A DNA stretch of 64,000 bases from Planctomycetota bacterium. Lineage in GTDB: Bacteria; Planctomycetota; Planctomycetia; Pirellulales; Lacipirellulaceae. Within the stretch, counting starts at the first letter, position 1. Every line of letters begins with the position of its first letter. The translations under genes and the position numbers were made by a program. The notes beneath the pieces are model-generated. The model ran no database searches. It was not told where the DNA came from and was given only the letters and a program-made list of their open reading frames with translations. The stretch is taken from assembly GCA_024278955.1 (NCBI GenBank), contig JAJRSE010000002.1:62001-126000 (forward strand), in the 5' to 3' direction. Shown here in pieces: positions 1-9,105 of this stretch.

Positions 1-503
1 GTTCCAAAGTTATTAGTGACTCCGAGCGTCGTATCGAGATTCAATTCCAGAATCTGACCATTGGTGACGTTTGTGCCGTTGCTATCCCAAGTGCAACCTG
101 CTGGAGGAGTTGGACCTATGGCGGTTGACAAATACGCCGTAAACCCATCGTTCCCATACAAATCCCGTAGCAAGCTATGGAATCGTAGCACGCTGTTTTG
201 GTTGTTCGTGTCGCGGACCAGTTGGTTGATGACTTCGTCGAGCAGCTTTTGCTGGCGAGCTGGGGCTTGGCTTTGCTCGGTAATGCGCGCACGCGTCTTG
301 TTCATCTTTCGGTACTGGTTCGCCGTCACAATAAACGCCGTGCCGATCATCAGGAACAGCGTCAGCAGGCTGAGCACCACCAGCAGCAAGATGCCGCGAC
401 GAGAAGAATTGCGGGTTGTGAGTCGCGAGTCACGCGTTGCGCGTTGCTTACGAAAACTCACGACCAACGACTCACGACTAACCACTTTTTTATTTTCTCT
501 CAT
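1..503 (-). CDS. GspK/PilX-like membrane-anchored pilus operon protein, C-terminus beyond window
   Basis: The reading frame opens at an ATG at 503 behind an AGAAGGTGAG ribosome site and stays open to the window edge, giving 167 residues with no stop. A basic leader of about 36 residues is followed by one hydrophobic segment (about residues 37-60) that begins RRGILLLVVLSLL. This resembles the N-terminus of GspK or PilX minor pseudopilins, which lack the glutamate at +5. It is the last visible gene of the prepilin operon, 151 bases after the preceding gene. Residues 6-32 are encoded by an inverted repeat (413-484), so much of the leader is repeat-derived. The role as a minor pilin or tip subunit is inferred from position and membrane anchor; the fold of the missing part is unknown. 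Confidence 0.7.
   Translation of the reverse strand, partial: MRENKKVVSRESLVVSFRKQRATRDSRLTTRNSSRRGILLLVVLSLLTLFLMIGTAFIVTANQYRKMNKTRARITEQSQAPARQQKLLDEVINQLVRDTNNQNSVLRFHSLLRDLYGNDGFTAYLSTAIGPTPPAGCTWDSNGTNVTNGQILELNLDTTLGVTNNFG
413..484. repeat. Imperfect inverted repeat, gagtcgcgagt family
   Basis: A left arm beginning ggttgtgagtcgcgagtcac (414 on) and a right arm ending gactcacgactaacc (to 484) are imperfect reverse complements around a GC-rich centre. The unit lies inside the start of the truncated gene at 1-503 and encodes its basic leader (residues about 6-32). Related units occur at 5903-5952 and inside lysS at 55391-55456. Confidence 0.7.
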
Positions 504-544
504 AATCTCACCTTCTCAATCTCTATCCCCAAAGGCCCCTTGCG

Positions 545-659
545 GATTTTTGATGTGGGATGTTTGATTTTTGATGTGAAGGAACAGGGTTTTTCGTTTT
601 TTCACACATCAACAATCAAACATCGAACATCAAACATTCTTTTGACATCTCACATCAAT
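545..659. repeat. Imperfect inverted repeat, gatgtttgat family (copy 1)
   Basis: The left arm (about 546-580) is built of gatgtttgat and tttttgatgtg units. The right arm (601-658) carries the complement, caatcaaacatc and catcaaacat units. About 27 of 31 aligned positions pair. The loop contains aaggaacagggtttttc, also seen in the copies at 1866-2049 and 13975-14029. The unit fills the gap between the gene ending at 655 and the one starting at 503, and it supplies the TGA stop of the upstream gene. Confidence 0.8.
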
Positions 660-2049
660 TTTTCCACAACGAAAAGTCTTCCATCGATAGCTGCTGCGTC
701 GCCACGCTGATTACGCCTGGCATGAGGATCGCCCGAAGGTCGGTAAACGAGCCTTCTGGCCAATCGGGACCATCGAGCGTTAAGTAGCGAACCGGTGGCG
801 TGGCTGTGGTGCCGAATGGCATGAAATTGCCTGTCTCGTCGGTTTCCTCATCTCTCGCCAAAATGCGATACCATTTCATCATAAAAACGCCGGTCGTTTG
901 GTTGACGCCTGCCAGGGCGATCCAGTTGCCGGGGCGAATGTCTTCCATGGCTGCGTCGACCAGCAGCTTGTCATTTGTTATCGTATCAAAAATCGCGATC
1001 TCGCCATCGTTAATGAATTCCGCTTGAATCAGCCGCTCGCTGGTTGCCGAAGGTGCGACCTCGCGGCGTCGGAACACGACGACCGAAACATCGTAGCGAG
1101 CCTCGCCGTAACCACCCGACGAAGGCTGCAAGACGTCAAGTGCCTCGCTACTCGTCGGCACAATCGTCGCCAGCCACGAATAGTCGCCCTTGTACTGCCG
1201 GCGAAGCAGCCGAGGCGGCACTACTGAATTATCGAGATCCCAATTCTGAATGCTCGGCCGATCGTCCTCCTCCGGCTGCGTCACGGCCAGGTCGTCGCGA
1301 AGGCGAAAGATGGTTTCGCCGACGGCGGTATTGAGAGGAACACCGTTGGCTTGAGGTAACGTGAGCCGGCGTATTGGCCAAACATTACCAGAAAGCGGTA
1401 CCGTTGCGCCAAACCAGGGGTTATTAGGTCCAGGTAAAGTTGATGCTGCAAATGGAAATCGCAATTCGCTAATATTTGCCGTGCCTAGTGGATCGAGCAC
1501 AAATGCGTGACCTGGCCCGAATGGATAGGTGTCGTCACCAATTAAAGGAGGGGTGGTAAGAGGCATATTAAAATACCCCTTGGTCTTGTTCGGCGGCGGA
1601 GTCAAATTAGTTTGCGGCACTATGAAGTCACTATTGAGTGGACCACCTGCTATCGTACTGGCATACAACCACAACTCCGGCTGCAACATTCCGCGGGCCG
1701 AGAGTTCTTCAAACGCATTTTGAGTGAGGCTGCTGCCGAGATCGAATTTTTCGCCTTCGATCACATAGTGATTTCCGACCGGGAAAATCGCGGCCACGCC
1801 CATCAGTCCGAATAGTAGCACGAAGATCGAAACGAGAATTTCGATCAACGAGATGCCGGAGCGGGGGATGTTTGATGGGGGATGTTTGATTGTTGATGGG
1901 AAGGAACAGGGGTTTTCAGTTTTTCGTAATCCGACGCGTAAGCGAGGGATGCACCGTCCAGGGTTTATCCCTCGCTTACGCGTCGAGTTACGGGAGATTC
2001 GATCTCCGCCTTTCACATCAACAATCAAACATCCCAAATCAAACATCAT
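655..2049 (-). CDS. Prepilin-like protein with N-methylation motif (pseudopilin 4 of the operon)
   Basis: The class III prepilin motif is RSG|ISLIEILVSIFVLLFG, with Gly at -1 and Glu at +5, followed by the usual hydrophobic helix. The long C-terminal part (about 380 residues) is far larger than classical pseudopilins of 120-200 residues, as is common for planctomycete prepilin-like proteins. The only ATG codons upstream of the motif are at 2049 and 2046, overlapping the stop of the previous gene (ATGATG), so translational coupling is likely. That start gives a basic leader of about 68 residues encoded wholly by repeats (1866-2049). TTG or GTG starts inside the repeat are possible alternatives. 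Membrane pseudopilin role inferred; individual function unknown. Confidence 0.75.
   Translation of the reverse strand: MMFDLGCLIVDVKGGDRISRNSTRKRGINPGRCIPRLRVGLRKTENPCSFPSTIKHPPSNIPRSGISLIEILVSIFVLLFGLMGVAAIFPVGNHYVIEGEKFDLGSSLTQNAFEELSARGMLQPELWLYASTIAGGPLNSDFIVPQTNLTPPPNKTKGYFNMPLTTPPLIGDDTYPFGPGHAFVLDPLGTANISELRFPFAASTLPGPNNPWFGATVPLSGNVWPIRRLTLPQANGVPLNTAVGETIFRLRDDLAVTQPEEDDRPSIQNWDLDNSVVPPRLLRRQYKGDYSWLATIVPTSSEALDVLQPSSGGYGEARYDVSVVVFRRREVAPSATSERLIQAEFINDGEIAIFDTITNDKLLVDAAMEDIRPGNWIALAGVNQTTGVFMMKWYRILARDEETDETGNFMPFGTTATPPVRYLTLDGPDWPEGSFTDLRAILMPGVISVATQQLSMEDFSLWKN
1866..2049. repeat. Nested inverted repeats: gatgtttgat family outside, gcgtaagcgaggga family inside
   Basis: The outer arms (1867-1899 and about 2011-2049) belong to the gatgtttgat / atcaaacatc family. 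Between them lies a second, stronger inverted repeat: 1925-1949 pairs with 1968-1992 over 25 bases with two mismatches, around an 18-base loop. The whole unit is in frame with the prepilin gene ending at 655 and encodes its leader, including the peptide STRKRGINPG. Two unrelated repeat families nested like this suggest one was inserted into the other. Confidence 0.85.
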
Positions 2050-3341
2050 CGCCCTGCTCCTGTGCTTCGCATCGTATGCCCAAACTCGTGAGCGGCTTCG
2101 ATTTGAAATTCGGCTGTTTCGATATCGTTGGCGCCGATATATGCCCTAGCATCAACAAAAGCATTTTCGCTCACAATCGCTCGACCGGAGTTCGGCGCGA
2201 TAAAAAGCCAACGACTATCAAGATTAAGCCAGTTGATTTTGTTCTGTAGCTCAGCAAGTGCATCATTCGACGCACTTGCTGTAATGGTCCACTCGTTAGA
2301 GTTGGTGAGCCCGCCGTTTTCAACGCGCCCAAGCAGTATCGCAATCCGCGAAACATTTGTCAGCGAATTGCTATTCAGAAATACGTTACTAATGCTACCT
2401 GAAGGCGAAAACATGATGCCGACCGTGTTCTGCCCGCCACCTGCTTGGAATAGCGAACCATCGGTTGGAAACCCGCTAGTGATTGCCCCTTCGGCAATCG
2501 AGCCCTGTAAATCAATCGCGATGCCCGCAGGGAATTGCAGTGGCTCTTCGACCGAAGTCACAGGCTGGCGGATGAATTTGTAGGGTTCGAGTACCGGGGT
2601 AGCAGGAAAAGGCAAAGTTTGCCCTCCCCCTTCATTGAGCCAAATGCACCTTAAAAACATCGGGGCAGAGGTTTCTGGCTGCAAAAAACCCCCATCGAGC
2701 TTGTTCGGCCAATCGTTTTGGTTGCTGTCGTCGATAACTAGGAACTCTTTACCACGGACTTCGATTACGTCACCGATTCGAAACATTCGTGGCGGATAGG
2801 GATCCAGTGCCGGAGCGGGGGTTGCGGCAAGAACAAAATGTAAATTGTAAAGTGGAGCGTTGTCATAAGTAGCAGTAAATTTCGTTCCACCGTTACCAAT
2901 CGATCCGTTAGAGCCATAGATCAATATCGTTGGGTTTACAGTAGCAATCCTAACACGCGAAGCACTACTAAACCCCGCAAAGGCCGGCGGGACTTCCCAG
3001 CGAAAGACGTCGAGCGCCACGCCGCTGCCGGGCGAGGTTTCTCGGAAGGCGATGCCTTGGTCGCGGCCGGTGCGGGCGGCTTCGGACTGGGCCTTCATGA
3101 TGTAGGTTTGCAGCATCCGCGAGGCCTCGCGAATTTTCCGCGTGTCGTTGTTCGGCGAAAGAATCGGAATCACACCAGCGACCAGGGTCGTGAGAATGAC
3201 AATCACCACGAGCAGCTCGATGAGAGTGAGAGCGTCGCGGATGTGGGATGTTTGATGTTTGATTGTTGATGTGCAAAGCGCGCAACGCGAGCGTTCTTTC
3301 CTTTTCACATCAAAAATCAAACATCTCCCATCAAACATCAT
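2046..3341 (-). CDS. Prepilin-like protein with N-methylation motif (pseudopilin 3 of the operon)
   Basis: The prepilin motif is RDA|LTLIELLVVIVILTTL, with Ala at -1 and Glu at +5, leading into a hydrophobic helix. A GspH-like stretch follows (REASRMLQTYIMKAQSEAA), typical of H-type minor pseudopilins. The total of 431 residues is long for the family. The ATG at 3341 overlaps the stop of the upstream gene by four bases (ATGA), and a second ATG follows at once. Both come from the repeat at 3241-3342, which encodes the first 30 or so residues. Expected to be cleaved and methylated by a prepilin peptidase (none in the window) and to join the pseudopilus in the inner membrane. Confidence 0.77.
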   Translation of the reverse strand: MMFDGRCLIFDVKRKERSRCALCTSTIKHQTSHIRDALTLIELLVVIVILTTLVAGVIPILSPNNDTRKIREASRMLQTYIMKAQSEAARTGRDQGIAFRETSPGSGVALDVFRWEVPPAFAGFSSASRVRIATVNPTILIYGSNGSIGNGGTKFTATYDNAPLYNLHFVLAATPAPALDPYPPRMFRIGDVIEVRGKEFLVIDDSNQNDWPNKLDGGFLQPETSAPMFLRCIWLNEGGGQTLPFPATPVLEPYKFIRQPVTSVEEPLQFPAGIAIDLQGSIAEGAITSGFPTDGSLFQAGGGQNTVGIMFSPSGSISNVFLNSNSLTNVSRIAILLGRVENGGLTNSNEWTITASASNDALAELQNKINWLNLDSRWLFIAPNSGRAIVSENAFVDARAYIGANDIETAEFQIEAAHEFGHTMRSTGAGR

Positions 3342-3342
3342 C
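3241..3342. repeat. Imperfect inverted repeat, gatgtttgat family (copy 3)
   Basis: Left arm atgtgggatgtttgatgttt onward (3241-3274) and right arm cacatcaaaaatcaaacatc onward (3305-3341) are imperfect reverse complements with a loop of about 30 bases. It spans the stop of one prepilin gene and the start and leader of the next, and it provides the two tandem ATG codons at 3341 and 3338. Confidence 0.82.
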
Positions 3343-4537
3343 GTCCGTCCTGTAGGTGGTTGTGGATATTGTCGAGCGAGTTGTCGTCGCCGTCGTCGTT
3401 TTTGTCAAAAGGGAAACCGAAGACATAGTTATAGTCATTAACAACGGGGACAAATATCGAACCCGGGCTAGGGGTGCTTGGATCAAGCGCGACAGGGTCA
3501 AAGCTAGAAGGAAAAGGCGTGCCTGACCCAGTAAAGGCGAGATCATCGATATCCGTTTCGCCGTCTGATCCAGCCGAGTAAATGAGCGGCACCAGACGAT
3601 ACGCTGGATTGGGGTCTCTCAACTCTGCGATCCACGAGGTGGGTATCGGATAAATTACTGTCGGTGGTCCTGGTGCGCTCGGCTGGTCTCTATGAAACGG
3701 ATCCATAGGATCGTGGTCAGCATCGGCATTATGAAGGTTGGTTACAGGGTCGATCGGTTGTAGGTCAGATACGAAGCCTGCTGGCCAGCGAATGAAATGT
3801 ATAGGACGTCCCCAGCCGTCAAGAAACTCGGGGGCGCCGTCGTCGTCGGTGTCGCCGATATCTTGCTGGTTAAAAAGAGTACGTGCTTCGCCATCGCCCG
3901 TGGCTAGCATGATAATCATGTAAAGGCATTCCGCTCCTTGGTTCTCAATGATGTCCTGCGTATTTGTGCCAGTTCCCGGGGGCTTGTTAAAAACTATTTG
4001 GTTATACCGTCTGAGGTAAGACTTTTGCAGGGAGGGAAAAGTGCTCAGCACTTTGGGCTGATCCTCGGGCCCCAACCCTCCTACCGGGTTCATGAGAATG
4101 TTACTCCAGCGATCGGGCATTTCAAATTTCATTAGCTCGCGAGTCGCAAGCAATCTTACGTCGGCAAGCATTTGCCCGCGTTGGACGGGATTAAGTCCCA
4201 TCGTATTGATGTCATTAAGAATTACCGGACTGACATCCACCCGTCGCGTGGCATAGCTTGCCCAGCGTTCCATCAACAGGCCGTTGAGCTTGGCGATGGT
4301 GCTTTTGGTTCTCGCCGCGTTGGCGTGCTCCATTGCGCTGCGGCTAGCGCCGAGAAAAGCGGCGCTGAGCGTGGCGATGATTGTGATGACGAGCATGAGC
4401 TCGATGAGGGTGACGCCTGTGCGGCGAATGTTTGATGTCGGAGGTTTGATTGTTGATGTACCGGAAGCACGAGCCGAGCGCAAGCAGCCACTTCTATCGG
4501 ACATCAACAATTTCACATCAAACATCAAACATCTCAT
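3338..4537 (-). CDS. Prepilin-like protein with N-methylation motif (pseudopilin 2 of the operon)
   Basis: The prepilin motif is RRTG|VTLIELMLVITIIATL with Gly at -1 and Glu at +5. The mature part is about 360 residues, with no recognised domain beyond the N-terminal helix, and ends in an Asp-rich tail (FDKNDDGDDNSLDN) that could bind calcium, as major pseudopilins often do; this last point is inference. The ATG at 4537 overlaps the upstream stop (ATGA). About 40 leader residues precede the motif, most of them encoded by the repeat at 4427-4538. Same operon and orientation as the other prepilin genes. Confidence 0.77.
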   Translation of the reverse strand: MRCLMFDVKLLMSDRSGCLRSARASGTSTIKPPTSNIRRTGVTLIELMLVITIIATLSAAFLGASRSAMEHANAARTKSTIAKLNGLLMERWASYATRRVDVSPVILNDINTMGLNPVQRGQMLADVRLLATRELMKFEMPDRWSNILMNPVGGLGPEDQPKVLSTFPSLQKSYLRRYNQIVFNKPPGTGTNTQDIIENQGAECLYMIIMLATGDGEARTLFNQQDIGDTDDDGAPEFLDGWGRPIHFIRWPAGFVSDLQPIDPVTNLHNADADHDPMDPFHRDQPSAPGPPTVIYPIPTSWIAELRDPNPAYRLVPLIYSAGSDGETDIDDLAFTGSGTPFPSSFDPVALDPSTPSPGSIFVPVVNDYNYVFGFPFDKNDDGDDNSLDNIHNHLQDGR

Positions 4538-4538
4538 G
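4427..4538. repeat. Imperfect inverted repeat, gatgtttgat family (copy 4)
   Basis: Left arm gaatgtttgatgtcggaggt onward (4427-4460) and right arm acatcaacaatttcacatca onward (4501-4536) are imperfect reverse complements around a GC-rich loop. As in the neighbouring copies, the repeat holds the overlapping stop and start codons of two prepilin genes and encodes the leader of the downstream one. Confidence 0.8.
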
Positions 4539-5673
4539 GCTGTGCATCCTCCAACGTGCCGACGCCAAAGTTGCCGACGGTGTCGGCAATGTCGCCAATG
4601 AAAGGGCCGGTGGGGAACTTGATAATATCTTCAAGGTCTTGGGTACTCGGAGTTGCGCCCTTCATTCGGAGACTCAGTGGCATGAAGGTTCCCCAGGCGT
4701 CGTCCAAACCCGCATGAAGAATTTGAAATTTACCTTGGTTGACAAAGACCAAATCGCTAGCGGTAGGCGTTCCCGAAAAACCTTCCCGCAATTTTTCGAT
4801 AGCGTGAACCATGGGCATACCCGATCCCAGTGCGGGCATGTCGTATTGTTCGGGCTTATGACGCGAAACGTCGAGGTACACGAATGGTTGTTCTGAACCA
4901 TTGGGAGCGTATTGCCAGAAGTTGATGCGGCGGTCAACTCCATTGAGTGTGTAAGTGATGAACCTGCCATTCCCTCCATTATCAGTATCATGGTAGACGC
5001 CGTTATTATCACGTGGTGCGAGACGCCCAAGATCGAATTCATATCTTCGGTTGCGATTTTCGAGAACGTCGTCACTCCGCTCTAGAGTGCCATCTCCGTC
5101 GCCATCGGAATCAGAAAACGAAGGGCCCCCTGGTCCGGAAATTGGAAATTGAGGATCGCTACTAAAACCGCCTAGCCAAAAGACCATTGCCTCCGCCGCG
5201 TTCATGCCTCCTTCATTAAAAAGGCCTGATGACTGAACTTGACCTGTCACGGGACCACCAGCTAAGGCGAGAATCAACTCCTGCGGTTCTTGACCTCGCG
5301 GAAACGACTTTCTGAACATGCGGACGAAATCATTCTGTGCAAGTGTATTCACCGGAGGAGGGGACGTAGGCGCACTGATCATCGCATTCGGCGGATACGC
5401 TCCGTACTCGTTCTTGAAATCTTCAAACGCAGAACTTAGCTGCTGGATTTCCAGCGTGATCGAAGCTTGTTTGGCTTTGTTCAGCGCGTTGACTGCCGCC
5501 CCGGTGATGAGACCCGCAAGGACCGCGATGATCGTGATGACGACCAGCAGCTCAGTCAATGTGAATGCGCGGGGAAATGACGAATGACGAATGACGAATG
5601 ACGACCTATCTATTCGGCATTCGGCATTCGGATTTCGGATTTTCCCACCTGTCTCATTTTGATTTAACTTCAT
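4534..5673 (-). CDS. GspG-like prepilin protein (pseudopilin 1 of the operon)
   Basis: The prepilin motif is FPRA|FTLTELLVVITIIAVLAG: Phe at +1, Glu at +5, Ala at -1. It is followed by GspG-like features, including a helix (KAKQASITLEIQQLSSAFEDFK) and a run towards YGAYPPN, the hallmark of major pseudopilins, making this the best GspG candidate of the four. The 379 residues exceed the usual 140-150. Start at the ATG at 5673 behind GGAGATAGG at suitable spacing. The leader of about 34 residues carries a repeat-derived stretch (RNPNAECRIDRSSFVIRHSS) from 5574-5643. First prepilin gene after gspF. Confidence 0.8.
   Translation of the reverse strand: MKLNQNETGGKIRNPNAECRIDRSSFVIRHSSFPRAFTLTELLVVITIIAVLAGLITGAAVNALNKAKQASITLEIQQLSSAFEDFKNEYGAYPPNAMISAPTSPPPVNTLAQNDFVRMFRKSFPRGQEPQELILALAGGPVTGQVQSSGLFNEGGMNAAEAMVFWLGGFSSDPQFPISGPGGPSFSDSDGDGDGTLERSDDVLENRNRRYEFDLGRLAPRDNNGVYHDTDNGGNGRFITYTLNGVDRRINFWQYAPNGSEQPFVYLDVSRHKPEQYDMPALGSGMPMVHAIEKLREGFSGTPTASDLVFVNQGKFQILHAGLDDAWGTFMPLSLRMKGATPSTQDLEDIIKFPTGPFIGDIADTVGNFGVGTLEDAQP
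5574..5643. repeat. Imperfect inverted repeat, gaatgacgaatg / cattcggcattcgg family
   Basis: Four tandem gacgaat(g) units (about 5578-5604) face tandem attcggc units (about 5611-5635), and the two arms are imperfect reverse complements. The unit is in frame in the prepilin gene at 4534-5673 and encodes most of its leader. This family is distinct in sequence from the gatgtttgat and gagtcgcgagt families but has the same arrangement. Confidence 0.75.
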
Positions 5674-5958
5674 GACCTATCTCCTACCTCGTGGTTGGAC
5701 TACTCCATGTGCAAATGCCGTGCGCAAACCGGCGTAGTGCGGTTTGCCGTGGCAAGAATGGCCTTTTTGGCCTTATGTTATTGCCAGAACCCCCGATTTG
5801 TCTTGAAAAGCAACTTCTTGTAGCCCCGCAGAGGGGGGCTGCACCCGAAGGCAGTGTAGCGGATCGGGCGGTGTATTGTAGCAAAATTGAACAGAGCAGG
5901 GGGGAGTTGTGAGTTACGGGTCGCGAGTTAAATGGAAAACCCGAAACTCAAAGCTCCT
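5674..5958. other. Intergenic spacer with several small hairpins
   Basis: This 285-base spacer separates gspF from the prepilin genes. It holds a perfect 8-bp stem (gcaaaccg 5724-5731 with cggtttgc 5740-5747), a ggcctttttggcc palindrome near 5762, and agcccc/ggggct at 5822-5840. None carries a clear U-run on the minus strand, so RNA processing or attenuation is only a possibility. No coding potential seen. Confidence 0.5.
5903..5952. repeat. Short inverted repeat, gagtcgcgagt family (decayed)
   Basis: gttgtgagttacgggtcgcg (5906 on) faces cccgaaactcaaa (5940 on) across a short centre. It lies immediately downstream of gspF on the minus strand. The sequence resembles the unit at 413-484 but pairing is weak, so it is listed as a decayed copy. 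Confidence 0.45.
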
Positions 5959-7290
5959 TTATCCACTCAAACCATTGATCAGCTCCACGAGCGGGATAAA
6001 CAGCGCGATCACGATAAATCCGACGGCACCGCCTAGGAACAGAATCAGCAGCGGCTCCATCAGCTTGGTGAGCCCATCAGTCAGCACGGCAACCTCTTCG
6101 TCGTAGGTGTCGGCGACTTTGTAGAGCATGGTGTCGAGCTCGCCGGTTTCTTCGCCGACGTCGACCATGTTGACCACGATATCGTCGACCACGCGTTGGC
6201 GATATTTCATCATATAAATGAGCAGCCCAATCGGCCCGCCCAGGAAGGCCATGAAGAAAAAGGCGGCCATCGGGTGGGGGCTGAGTTTCGAGTATTCCTT
6301 CATCGGTTGAGCAATCGCATCGCCCTCGCGGATCCGCTCGCTAATGCGTGCATACAATCGCTCGAACACCGCGTTGCCGCTGGTCTCGCGAGTGATGTTG
6401 AGCGCTTCGAGAATCGGCACACCGCTAGAGATCAACGTCCCCAGGGTTCGCGAAGTACGGGCCATGATGTTCTTTTCGACCAACGAACCAAAGATCGGCA
6501 CCTTGATCGCAAACTGATCCCAGCCCATTCGTCCGGCTTTGAATTTACGGATCAGCTTGATCGTAAGCCAAATCGTAATCGGCACGCCGGGTATCAGATA
6601 CCAGTAGTTGACGCACCAATTGGAGAAGGCGATGAGATAGACGGTCATCGCCGGCAGATCGAGATCGAAATCGTCAAAGATCAGCACAAACGATGGCACG
6701 ATTTTGATCATGATGAACGTCAGAATACCGACTGCCACCGAGACGACGACGACCGGGTAGATCATCGCGCCTTTGACTTTGCGTTTAAGCGACTCGGCCC
6801 GCTCTTTGAACTCGGCCAGGCGCTGGAGAATAACTTCCAGGGCACCACCGGCCTCGCCTGCTTTGATCATGTTGACATAAAGTCGGTCGAACGCTTTGGG
6901 GCACTTGCCCATCGCCTCGGAGAGCGTATCGCCGCCTTCGATGGCTTCGCAGGTATCTTCGAGCGAGTATTTGAGCCGCCCCGGTTTTGATTGTTCGCTG
7001 AGGATACGAAGGCTGCGAAGAATCGGGAGGCCGGCATCCTGAAGAATCGAAAGTTGTCGGGTGAAGGCCGTTAGGTCCTTTGAAGGAACGCCACCAAAGA
7101 CAAAGCCCCGCTTCTTGCCGCTCGCATTCCCGCCATCGGCTTTCTTCCGCGCCTTTTTTACCGAGATCTTCGTAACGAAGTATCCCATCTGGCGAATCGT
7201 GGCCTGGGCGTCTTCTTCGGTCGCAGCATCGATGACGTCCTTGATTTCGGAGCCAGTCGAATCCATCGCTTCGAATTGAAAAGTAGGCAT
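5959..7290 (-). CDS. gspF: Type II secretion / type IV pilus inner-membrane platform protein GspF/PilC
   Basis: This polytopic platform protein couples the cytoplasmic ATPase to pseudopilus assembly. Two T2SSF domains are visible: the first around residues 75-200 (LTAFTRQLSILQDAGLPIL, then the GEAGG motif), the second around 280-440 (ARTSRTLGTLISSGVPILEA, then GEETGELD). Hydrophobic segments lie near 178-202, 222-250 and at the C-terminus. A cytoplasmic N-terminal region resembles the usual GspF opening. In the second domain an extra hydrophobic stretch (AAFFFMAFLGGPIGLLIYMM) lies between the conserved proline and the glutamate motif, where most relatives have only a few residues. Length 443, against about 400-410 usual. 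Operon with the ATPase genes upstream. Confidence 0.93.
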   Translation of the reverse strand: MPTFQFEAMDSTGSEIKDVIDAATEEDAQATIRQMGYFVTKISVKKARKKADGGNASGKKRGFVFGGVPSKDLTAFTRQLSILQDAGLPILRSLRILSEQSKPGRLKYSLEDTCEAIEGGDTLSEAMGKCPKAFDRLYVNMIKAGEAGGALEVILQRLAEFKERAESLKRKVKGAMIYPVVVVSVAVGILTFIMIKIVPSFVLIFDDFDLDLPAMTVYLIAFSNWCVNYWYLIPGVPITIWLTIKLIRKFKAGRMGWDQFAIKVPIFGSLVEKNIMARTSRTLGTLISSGVPILEALNITRETSGNAVFERLYARISERIREGDAIAQPMKEYSKLSPHPMAAFFFMAFLGGPIGLLIYMMKYRQRVVDDIVVNMVDVGEETGELDTMLYKVADTYDEEVAVLTDGLTKLMEPLLILFLGGAVGFIVIALFIPLVELINGLSG

Positions 7291-7308
7291 GGCGGTATGT
7301 CGTGGTCA

Positions 7309-7383
7309 GTAGTCAGTGGTCAGTGGGCAGATAGGGGTGGGCCGGTGGGAGCACTGTTTTACTGCCCACGGACTACTGCCTAC
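7309..7383. repeat. Inverted repeat, gtcagtggtcagtgggcag family
   Basis: The 22-base arms 7309-7330 and 7362-7383 are reverse complements at 19 of 22 positions, separated by a G-rich loop. The repeat fills the gap between the ATPase gene ending at 7390 and the gspF start at 7290. A stem this close to the gspF start could affect its translation; that is inference. Confidence 0.82.
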
Positions 7384-7389
7384 TCTTTC

Positions 7390-9105
7390 TTACGCATCAA
7401 TAATAGTTTCTCGAACAACTTCCTCGGTTGTGGTGGTGCCTGCGTAGGCGGCTTTCATTCCCGCATCTCGCAAGGTAATCATTCCCGCTTTTCTGGCGGA
7501 CTCTCGGATTTCGTCGGTCGAGGCGTTTTGCATGATCAGGTCGCGTAGATCGTTGTTCATGATCATCAGCTCGAAAAGACCAACTCGCCCCTTGTATCCC
7601 GTATTATTACAGTTTTCGCAGCCACCGCCACGATAAAACTTCCGCCCTTTGAGGTCTTTGGCTGTCAATTCCAGGTCGTCCAGGACCTCCTGAGGGGGGG
7701 CATACTCTTCTCGACACTTCTCGCAGACTCTTCGGACCAGACGCTGAGCCAAAATCGCCTCGACCGTCGCGGTGATTAAAAACGTGGGGACACCCATGTC
7801 CTTCAACCGCGTAATCGTGCCCGGGGCGTCGTTGGTATGGAGCGTGCTGAAAACCATATGCCCCGTCAGCGAGGCCTGAACCGCGATTTCGGCGGTCTCC
7901 AAATCGCGAATCTCGCCCACGAGAATCTTGTCGGGATCCTGACGCAAAATCGCCCGGAGACACTGGGCAAACGTATTGCCGATCGACGCATCGATTGGCA
8001 CCTGGATGATGCCTTCCATGTCGTACTCGACCGGGTCTTCGGTCGTGATGAGCTTGTCTTCGATGACGTTGAGTTCGTTGAGAGCAGAATAAAGCGTGGT
8101 GGTTTTCCCCGAGCCGGTCGGCCCGGTCACCAAGACAATGCCGTTGGGCCTGGAAATAACCTTTTGAAACTGGGTCATGAGCGTATCGTTCATGCCCACC
8201 TTCTTGAGATCGAGCGACACGACCGAGCGGTCGAGTACCCGCATCACGACGCTTTCGCCAAACATGGTCGGCAGCACACTCACACGCAAGTCGACCGGGT
8301 GCCCGCCGACGTTGAGCTCGATGCGTCCGTCCTGAGGCATCCGGCGCTCGGCGATATCGAGATCGGCCATCACCTTGATACGTGTCGTGATTGCAAAAGC
8401 CAAATGCCTCGGCGGAGGGACCATTTCGTAAAGTACGCCATCGGCCTTGATGCGGATGCGGAATTCGTCTTCAAAGGGTTCAAAATGCAAATCGCTTGCG
8501 TGGTCTTTAATCGCAATCAGCAGCACCATATTCAGTAGCTTGCGAACGGGCGCACTATCGGCCAACGCTTCGACGCTCGTCAGGTCAACCGTCCCACCCT
8601 CGGCCGCAGCTGCCGCCGCGGCAAGGTTCACATCGTCTTCGAGGTCAGAAACAATGCTTTCGACACTCTCGGTATTCTCGCCATAGTAACGATCGAGGCT
8701 TGCCACAATGCCTTGTTCGGTCGTGACGACCACCTGGATGTTGTAGCCAAGAAACGTACGCAGCTCGTCTTGCACGGCGAGGTTTTGCGGATCGCACATT
8801 GCGACGGTAAGCGTGTCGGAGTCGAACTCAATGGGGATGATGCGGTACATCTGCGCCATCGGCTCGGTCACCATCTCAATGACTTCGGGCTTAATCGTAA
8901 GATCGGCGACCGCGACCGTGCGGAGCGACATTTGTTCGCCAAGCGATTGAGCAAGTTGTTCGTCGTTGACCAGCCCCATGTCCATAGCGACCCGACCGAT
9001 CAGCTGACCAGGACGCTCGTTCTGCTCGTCGACGAGCAATTCGAGCTGTTCGTCAGAGATATATCCAAGGTCGACCATGATTTGGCCAATACGCCGCAGA
9101 GCCAT
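7390..9105 (-). CDS. GspE/PilB-family secretion/pilus assembly ATPase
   Basis: A cytoplasmic hexameric ATPase that drives pseudopilus or pilus extension. Order: N-terminal GspE domain (MshEN type, residues 1-150; IGQIMVDLGYISDEQ), an alanine-rich linker (161-170), then the motor domain with Walker A GPTGSGKTTT (about 328), an Asp box, Walker B near ILRQDPDKILVGEIRD, a His box (GHMVFSTLHTNDAPG), and a zinc-binding tetracysteine pair (CEKC and CENC) near 475-520. Length 571 is normal. Start ATG at 9105 lacks a clear ribosome site. One of two PilB/GspE-like ATPases in the operon; which serves secretion and which pilus extension cannot be told from sequence. Confidence 0.93.
   Translation of the reverse strand: MALRRIGQIMVDLGYISDEQLELLVDEQNERPGQLIGRVAMDMGLVNDEQLAQSLGEQMSLRTVAVADLTIKPEVIEMVTEPMAQMYRIIPIEFDSDTLTVAMCDPQNLAVQDELRTFLGYNIQVVVTTEQGIVASLDRYYGENTESVESIVSDLEDDVNLAAAAAAAEGGTVDLTSVEALADSAPVRKLLNMVLLIAIKDHASDLHFEPFEDEFRIRIKADGVLYEMVPPPRHLAFAITTRIKVMADLDIAERRMPQDGRIELNVGGHPVDLRVSVLPTMFGESVVMRVLDRSVVSLDLKKVGMNDTLMTQFQKVISRPNGIVLVTGPTGSGKTTTLYSALNELNVIEDKLITTEDPVEYDMEGIIQVPIDASIGNTFAQCLRAILRQDPDKILVGEIRDLETAEIAVQASLTGHMVFSTLHTNDAPGTITRLKDMGVPTFLITATVEAILAQRLVRRVCEKCREEYAPPQEVLDDLELTAKDLKGRKFYRGGGCENCNNTGYKGRVGLFELMIMNNDLRDLIMQNASTDEIRESARKAGMITLRDAGMKAAYAGTTTTEEVVRETIIDA

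Follow-up and report, generated by a model that had tools for sequence, protein, structure and literature searches.

The operon and its hairpin repeats

The window analysed here is a stretch of 64,000 nucleotides from a Planctomycetota bacterium, namely positions 62001-126000 of contig C36 in a 146-contig genome of 4.6 Mb (G000, the own genome of the window). It carries a minus-strand operon comprising a GspE-like gene, a GspF-like gene, four prepilin-like genes (p1 to p4) and then p5. The gaps of this operon, and the codons that lead from the start codon to the prepilin cleavage site, are occupied by hairpins of tandem seven-base units (heptads), and the operon is probably a place where such repeats land again and again. 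The genes, in window positions and with the basis of each call, are as follows.

7390-9105, minus strand: GspE/PilB-like ATPase, T2SSE with an MshEN domain (open reading frame (ORF) listing, Pfam)
5959-7290, minus strand: GspF-like protein, T2SSF (ORF listing, Pfam)
4534-5673, minus strand: p1 prepilin, leader start MKLNQNET, cleavage motif AFTLTELL (ORF, PF07963, alignment)
3338-4537, minus strand: p2 prepilin, ATGA overlap with p1 (ORF; PF07963 at 21.1 bits against a cut-off of 21.2)
2046-3341, minus strand: p3 prepilin, ATGA overlap with p2 (ORF; PF07963 at E 0.0015, below the cut-off)
655-2049, minus strand: p4 prepilin, ATGA overlap with p3, stop codon at 655-657 within a repeat arm (ORF; PF07963 at E 0.0052, below the cut-off)
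1-503, minus strand: 5' part of p5, which leaves the window (3-503 free of stops; full length read from the contig; rough gene call)

With hmmscan, p1 exceeds the PF07963 cut-off, p2 falls 0.1 bit short and p3 and p4 lie below it; in a further search all four were above the cut-off, p4 reaching 21.5 bits with its frame neighbours included. The co-location of GspE, GspF and proteins with an N-methylation motif marks the locus as a type II secretion or type 4 filament operon. In full, p5 has 1936 residues and a prepilin-like N terminus (G000 C36 56693-62503); it gave no Pfam match at E 0.01, and p5-like proteins come next in eight of the ten order-level loci searched. No Rfam match was obtained in window positions 1-8000. 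Promoter-like sites number 10 against 6.4 in shuffles (standard deviation 3.0) and terminator-like sites 14 against 10.9 (standard deviation 4.1).

The repeat arms in the window are degenerate tandem heptamers in inverted pairs, built of TTTGATG and its complement, of GACTCAC, of GAATGAC with ATTCGGC, or of GTCAGTG. They are listed below without strand, with z for the predicted RNA fold of the interval given relative to shuffles.

7302-7384: GTCAGTG-type heptad hairpin in the GspE-GspF gap (arms 7308-7330/7362-7384, 87%; z -4.5 for 7300-7390)
5905-5955: inverted pair of degenerate GAGTTAC-type units between GspF and p1 (seen by eye only; repeat tools silent)
5574-5643: GAATGAC/ATTCGGC heptad hairpin within the p1 leader (heptad score 32 at C36 67576-67642, inverted score 14; z -1.7 for 5574-5685)
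4427-4538: TTTGATG heptad hairpin forming the p2 leader (arms 4428-4459/4501-4532, 81% complementary; z -4.4 for 4427-4548)
3240-3342: TTTGATG heptad hairpin forming the p3 leader from the start codon on (arms 3240-3278/3301-3339, 82%; z -4.5 for 3235-3352)
1866-2049: p4 leader, formed by a TTTGATG heptad hairpin that encloses a palindrome (arms 1867-1902/2012-2047)
1925-1992: the nested palindrome CGACGCGTAAGCGAGGG, dispersed (arms 87% complementary)
545-659: TTTGATG heptad hairpin in the p4-p5 gap, giving the p4 stop codon (arms 546-578/605-637, 88%, plus an arm at 645-658; z -7.0 for 541-660)
413-484: GACTCAC heptad hairpin within the p5 leader (arms 415-438/455-478, 71%; z -1.6 for 405-515)

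Four of the six stretches folded (1866-2049 stood outside this set) lie far beyond their shuffles and the other two do not. The palindrome CGACGCGTAAGCGAGGG has 32 matches at up to three mismatches in the own genome and none for its reversed control; the window copy occupies the loop of the hairpin in the p4 leader, and several other copies are inverted pairs as well.

The six stretches described in the original prediction are real, judging from their inverted arms and, for 5574-5643, from heptad and inverted scores, although its list overlooked the GTCAGTG hairpin (7308-7384), the degenerate pair at about 5905-5955 and the palindrome at 1925-1992. It had placed the repeats at successive gene junctions, which fits 545-659 in the p4-p5 gap and not 413-484, which like 5574-5643 lies inside the 5' end of a gene. 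As it proposed, one repeat supplies a stop codon (p4, 655-657, in a repeat arm), and the repeats are in frame, which holds for the leaders of five prepilin-like genes; the leader length, put at 30-68 residues, becomes 35, 40, 36 and 64 from start to motif for p1, p2, p3 and p4, respectively. The further idea that the repeats created the ATGA overlaps, found at three junctions (p1/p2, p2/p3 and p3/p4), fails for p1/p2, as that overlap also occurs in genomes G013 and G019, where no heptad tract accompanies it.

Heptad tracts inside and outside the operon

In 506 kb of the own genome, 36 period-7 tracts score at least 12, as opposed to between zero and two for each of periods 4, 5, 8, 10, 11 and 13. 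Periods 6, 9, 12 and 14 yielded 14, 13, 21 and 24 tracts, as expected from coding periodicity and from multiples of seven. At a threshold of 11, the two contigs scanned hold 22 and 21 tracts, and on C36 seven of the 22 fall inside the 8 kb of the operon (the operon count is seven or eight, depending on the strand scanned). Among heptad hairpins in the loci scanned, 86 of 93 are G-rich in the 5' arm, usually with a C-rich 3' arm (either strand, related genomes counted individually), a stronger lean than the 55 of 80 found for inverted repeats without heptads. Beyond the operon, 55 of 81 tracts are intergenic, 16 lie at 3' ends, five at 5' ends and five inside called genes, according to a rough, home-made gene caller. 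The earlier suggestion that the repeats settle in gaps is supported by this distribution.

The local excess of tracts, which distinguishes the operon, recurs in relatives. Of 43 genomes of the family, one per species, 36 yielded a p1 orthologue with an E value of 1e-30 or lower and form the basis of these counts, the other seven standing outside them. The operon loci of the 36 contain 172 tracts over 455.7 kb (0.377 per kb), compared with 27 in 760 kb of control sequence, that is, 38 random 20-kb stretches from nine genomes (0.036 per kb), a roughly tenfold difference in density. Counts for periods 5, 8 and 11 were 5, 6 and 2 in operon loci and 4, 7 and 3 in controls. In G004, for example, positions 305-324 kb of C2 contain 14 tracts, whereas random 200 kb contain six in G004 and two in G006. 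At least one tract is present in 30 of the 36 loci, and in 24 of the 36 genomes, spanning nine genera, a tract stands at a scored leader site.

Other prepilins served as the closer control. These 79 genes, from five genomes of the genus, consist of 50 non-operon matches of the own genome and 29 loci from G004, G006, G008 and G010 (the best 30 of 247 matches, less L206, which lacks the motif). A tract lies within 150 nt of the motif at 52 of 92 operon prepilin sites versus three of the 79 controls (Fisher p 7e-15, with the sites of related genomes not independent), and an inverted score of at least 11 is reached at 35 of 92 versus four of 79. Either feature, that is, a heptad tract or a strong inverted repeat, is found at 57 of 92 versus six of 79. 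The figures of 52 and 57 are low counts because the motif search passed over at least five genes of the operon in which heptads or strong inverted repeats are present (p2 of G000, p3 of G004, p4 of G012 and p2 and p3 of G015); the second-match locus of G009, L050, was excluded from that search. Only one of the three control prepilins with a tract (C132:74259) has it in the leader. As other prepilins are almost free of repeats, a cleavable leader is not sufficient to attract them, and the operon must also be a hot spot.

Filling of the operon varies across the family. All four scored sites are filled in G006, G007, G010 and G018, and none carries a tract in G013, G014, G016, G019, G021, G040, G041, G044, G046, G051, G053 and G057, several of which have only one or two scored sites. 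Among these twelve, G013, G016, G019, G044 and G046 keep the operon with neither a tract nor a strong inverted repeat at their scored sites; elsewhere, G013 is poor in tracts (one in 60 kb) and G046 has two in 40 kb. Outside the family, ten order-level loci gave 11 tracts in G024, six in G038, two in G033 and one each in G036 and G035, and none in G037, G031, G028, G034 and G029. In G024, which belongs to another family (L353), five prepilin-like leaders of one operon share a near-identical GTCAGTG-type cassette that ends directly before the cleavage motif, in four of the five genes with CGCCGGCCAAAGGCCGGCGC. A profile scan of genome contigs with the p1 alignment returned mostly common prepilin motifs, at 27-49% identity over short stretches, and no orthologues.

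Leader turnover and its possible causes

The comparison of orthologous operons that the original prediction had called for gave the result it anticipated: leaders vary at the repeats while mature parts align. Heptamers differ between species and resemble one another within a genome, and mature parts track orthology. Leaders share on average 2.15 nine-mers within a genome (107 pairs) versus 0.55 between orthologues (1153 pairs; p 0.0008 in a one-sided test of pairs that are not independent), and the initial 130 nt of the mature part show the reverse, with 1.76 within a genome and 6.05 between orthologues. Copying between neighbouring leaders is likely for p3 and p4 of G012 and for p2, p3 and p4 of G000. 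The p3 and p4 leaders of G012 (L055) consist of long compound repeats (SSIFNLTSHIPPPST...) that are strongly alike between both genes.

The p1 leader offers a view of how the repeats may have arrived. Its start, M..(N/T)Q(N/I)E(T/N), is preserved in eight of the ten same-genus genomes with the operon, and heptads follow it in G000, G001, G007, G008 and G010. In G012, the same conserved start is separated from the cleavage site by 14 heptad-free residues (this start was chosen, the frame being open further upstream), and the p1 leaders of G015, G017 and G039 are short. The simplest order of events suggested by the G012 leader and by short leaders in other genera is a short ancestral leader to which heptads were added, the alternative being loss in G012. 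Genomes G013 and G019 bear on the observation named beforehand as contrary to the earlier model, the same leaders without repeats: both have leaders of about 30-50 residues with no detectable heptads, which goes part of the way, and the p2 leader of G013, which can be aligned to the G012 heptad leader, looks decayed by eye. In the codons after the p1 start (window 5650-5664, approximately AATCAAAATGAGAC), third positions also look conserved by eye across eight genus genomes (the window with L044, L049, L052, L053, L055, L056 and L058), and this may point to constraint acting on the RNA besides the peptide.

The same p1 start speaks to whether the leaders are translated at all. If the true start lay just before the cleavage motif, the repeats would be 5' untranslated sequence and the leaders an annotation effect, and some leaders do contain an internal ATG or GTG. 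However, a conserved p1 N terminus upstream of the repeats in eight of ten genus genomes argues that translation begins upstream of them, and three window genes have their ATGA overlap at the distal start. Further, frames are open through the repeats: with start codons picked by a simple score, the remaining five reading frames of leaders with heptads lack stops in 30-47% of cases (66-71% in the shorter, heptad-free leaders), so that the used frame is kept open. Of all the readings considered, the annotation effect is given the least credence.

We consider it reasonably probable that heptad hairpins repeatedly land and are amplified in this operon as a hot spot, combined with tolerance in the leaders and copying within the genome, and this account is ranked first. 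Heptad hairpins would gather where they do little harm; for most of the sampled genome, these places are the gaps between genes and the ends of genes. In a tightly overlapped operon, the harmless places would be the existing gaps and the codons between the start codon and the prepilin cleavage site. A leader could tolerate heptads because an unbroken frame without stops is all it needs and because it is expected to be cleaved away; the second palindrome, in frame inside the p4 leader (1925-1992), was counted in favour of such tolerance. From one leader, arms and whole cassettes would then be copied to neighbouring leaders of the same genome, with slippage, fold-back synthesis, gene conversion or a transposase as candidate processes, and the outcome would be leaders that are alike within a species and replaced between species. 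Of this account, the position of the repeats, their period of seven, the open frame, the local excess, the turnover between species and the similarity within genomes are observed, whereas the order of events, cleavage, neutrality and the copying process are inferred. The earlier proposal that the repeats are tolerated since leaders are cleaved is thus favoured as far as tolerance goes; as a full explanation it falters on the other prepilins, only three of 79 of which have a tract.

Several observations weigh against this account. Tolerance gives no reason why this operon should be filled over other prepilins, and neutral repeats should leave some junctions unfilled, yet each of the four scored sites is occupied in G006, G007, G010 and G018, which would suit a functional device too. 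Periods 6 (50 tracts in operon loci, 28 in controls), 9 (37 and 25) and 10 (7 and 1) are also raised per base in operon loci, and five of the 81 non-operon tracts lie inside called genes. Orthologous leaders within the genus share 1.90 nine-mers (192 pairs), near the within-genome value, so part of the leader difference reflects divergence time. The operon is a hot spot for heptads, yet other dense places exist: C70 of G000 at 53-92 kb, with genes that look housekeeping-like by eye, and C4 of G004 at 361-405 kb, with genes that look glycan-synthesis-like by eye. With overlapping matches counted, one heptamer pattern has at least 114 matches in G006 and 18 in G004, and a second at least 15 in G006 and 69 in G004, in many places. 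Finally, no mobilising enzyme or target site was found, and Y1 transposase loci (30 read of 54 matches in eight genomes) rarely bear heptads. The idea that such secondary hot spots are conserved was set aside: tblastn with the genes around the C70 stretch found no counterpart in the dense region of G004 C4. A heptad place in G006 with three tracts (L345) matches two C70 genes at 48% and 38%. Within the glycan-synthesis-like cluster, L343 (G004 C4 365001-385000) has 15 heptad tracts in 20 kb, and two mutually similar tracts lie in an open frame of 766 residues.

The second-ranked account, which we regard as unlikely, is that the hairpins are selected in the mRNA: a renewable hairpin over each cistron start would couple translation to the upstream gene or protect the upstream message and so set the pilin ratio, with the structure kept and the sequence free. 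The constant position from start codon to cleavage site with differing heptamers would fit, as would tracts at scored sites in nine genera, the strong predicted folds in four of the six window stretches and Shine-Dalgarno-like sequences at 54 of the 92 starts chosen. Further, coupling through upstream ribosomes that unfold hairpins has been described (PMC12548453). However, the mean fold z is -2.04 at the 57 sites with heptads or inverted repeats (15 below -3), -0.09 at the 35 sites without them (two below -3) and -0.14 at 50 other prepilins of the own genome (one below -3). The lack of excess structure at heptad-free sites argues against a required hairpin, for which other structures would be expected in their place. 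Likewise, the five genomes that keep the operon without a tract or strong inverted repeat at their scored sites (G013, G016, G019, G044 and G046) speak against it, and some heptad leaders, such as p3 and p4 of G018, are one-sided. A broader proposal, in our judgement more doubtful still, is that of a renewable regulatory layer in this order. Selection would keep the start-codon hairpins of type 4 filament cistrons while a heptamer-generating process rewrites their sequence and spreads units from leader to leader. Inheritance would then concern the structure and not the sequence, and pilin ratios could be retuned, or switched by whole heptamers.

Switching is the core of a contingency locus, in which a change of one heptamer (7 = 1 mod 3) would shift the frame and toggle single pilins. 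Tandem units not divisible by three at the starts of filament genes would suit such a device, and some leaders have long arrays (p3 and p4 of G012, with scores of 73 and 68). The window, however, has few units, which are degenerate, the leaders read keep the frame, and slippage does not need inverted arms; this reading is improbable. 

A slightly poorer candidate is mobilisation by RAYT transposases, with the repeats as ordinary REP or REPIN elements. Y1 transposase genes occur in all eight genomes searched, and G013, with its tract-less leaders, has one weak Y1 match with two stops. On the other hand, any heptad tract is present at only four of the 30 RAYT loci read, the heptads have no single consensus, and L163 is bracketed by CCCAGGGC palindromes instead of heptads. 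RAYT mobilisation thus found no support as the main cause. Among these loci, only L157 has tracts on both sides, and their units differ. Palindromes of the CCCAGGGC type stand near Y1 (RAYT-type) genes on both sides at L163 and on one side at L156, with a related palindrome at L164, and may be the true REP partners of these genes. A comparison of charge favours the used frame, with 0.135 versus 0.084 per residue (p 7e-6), but heptad-free leaders lean alike (0.178 versus 0.103), so that it tells little of the repeats.

Comparison with known repeat systems

Heptamer repeats occur in many bacteria. Cyanobacterial STRR form families of tandem heptamers dispersed between genes, as here; to our knowledge, there is no account of them as in-frame prepilin leaders.

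In Xanthomonas, GGGAATC heptamers are over-represented between genes and form 70 and 75 convergent pairs in two genomes, capable of stem-loops (PMC4692102). The planctomycete repeats are similar in their tandem seven-base unit, evident from the period-7 excess, in their mostly intergenic position (55 of 81 non-operon tracts), though not at the prepilin junctions of this operon, and in the G-rich arm coming first (86 of 93), if the Xanthomonas order is taken from the word "convergent" (PMC4692102). They differ in that the main window units TTTGATG, GACTCAC and GAATGAC lack GGG, unlike the quadruplex-type G-runs of Xanthomonas. Instead of one G-rich unit there are many unrelated, degenerate ones, with a conserved operon hot spot and coding leaders (PMC4692102). 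In marine Beggiatoaceae, TAACTGA heptamers adjoin start codons and overlap stop codons, and in-gene copies lie mostly at protein ends (PMC4679880). These are direct repeats of one unit (with one indirect set) that precede starts, whereas here the repeats form the leaders (PMC4679880).

Rickettsia palindromic elements and REPs within genes allow in-frame translation, and some lie at protein ends, with the caution that many N-terminal ones may lie outside the real gene (PMC3733652). In-frame insertion at a seemingly tolerated place of a protein is common to both systems. However, Rickettsia elements belong to defined families, whereas heptamers here vary between genomes and genes with no single conserved family, and in the account used the Rickettsia elements are neither concentrated in one operon nor tied to a cleaved leader (PMC3733652). 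The mycobacterial MIRU resemble the present repeats as small repeats at start codons with four-base coupling overlaps, but bring a small coupled ORF of their own, while the leader repeats here are fused into the downstream reading frame (PMC12548453).

None of the papers listed in searches of the open-access literature deals with heptad hairpins that serve as prepilin leaders or occur in operons of planctomycetes. The same junctions are refilled species after species with different words, and apparently empty, filled and decayed states coexist. With orthologous genes as rulers, turnover, copying between neighbours and tolerance become measurable, which makes the operon a natural test of repeat spread and tolerance. 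The leaders also carry a warning, in that repeat-made leaders of 30-60 residues exist and may be mishandled by gene callers and signal-peptide models. Collectively, heptameric repeats, in-gene repeats near protein ends and repeats at coupled junctions are already known (PMC4692102, PMC4679880, PMC3733652, PMC12548453). As far as the literature was searched, the conserved operon hot spot, the use as prepilin leaders, the replacement of words between species and the similarity within a genome are new.

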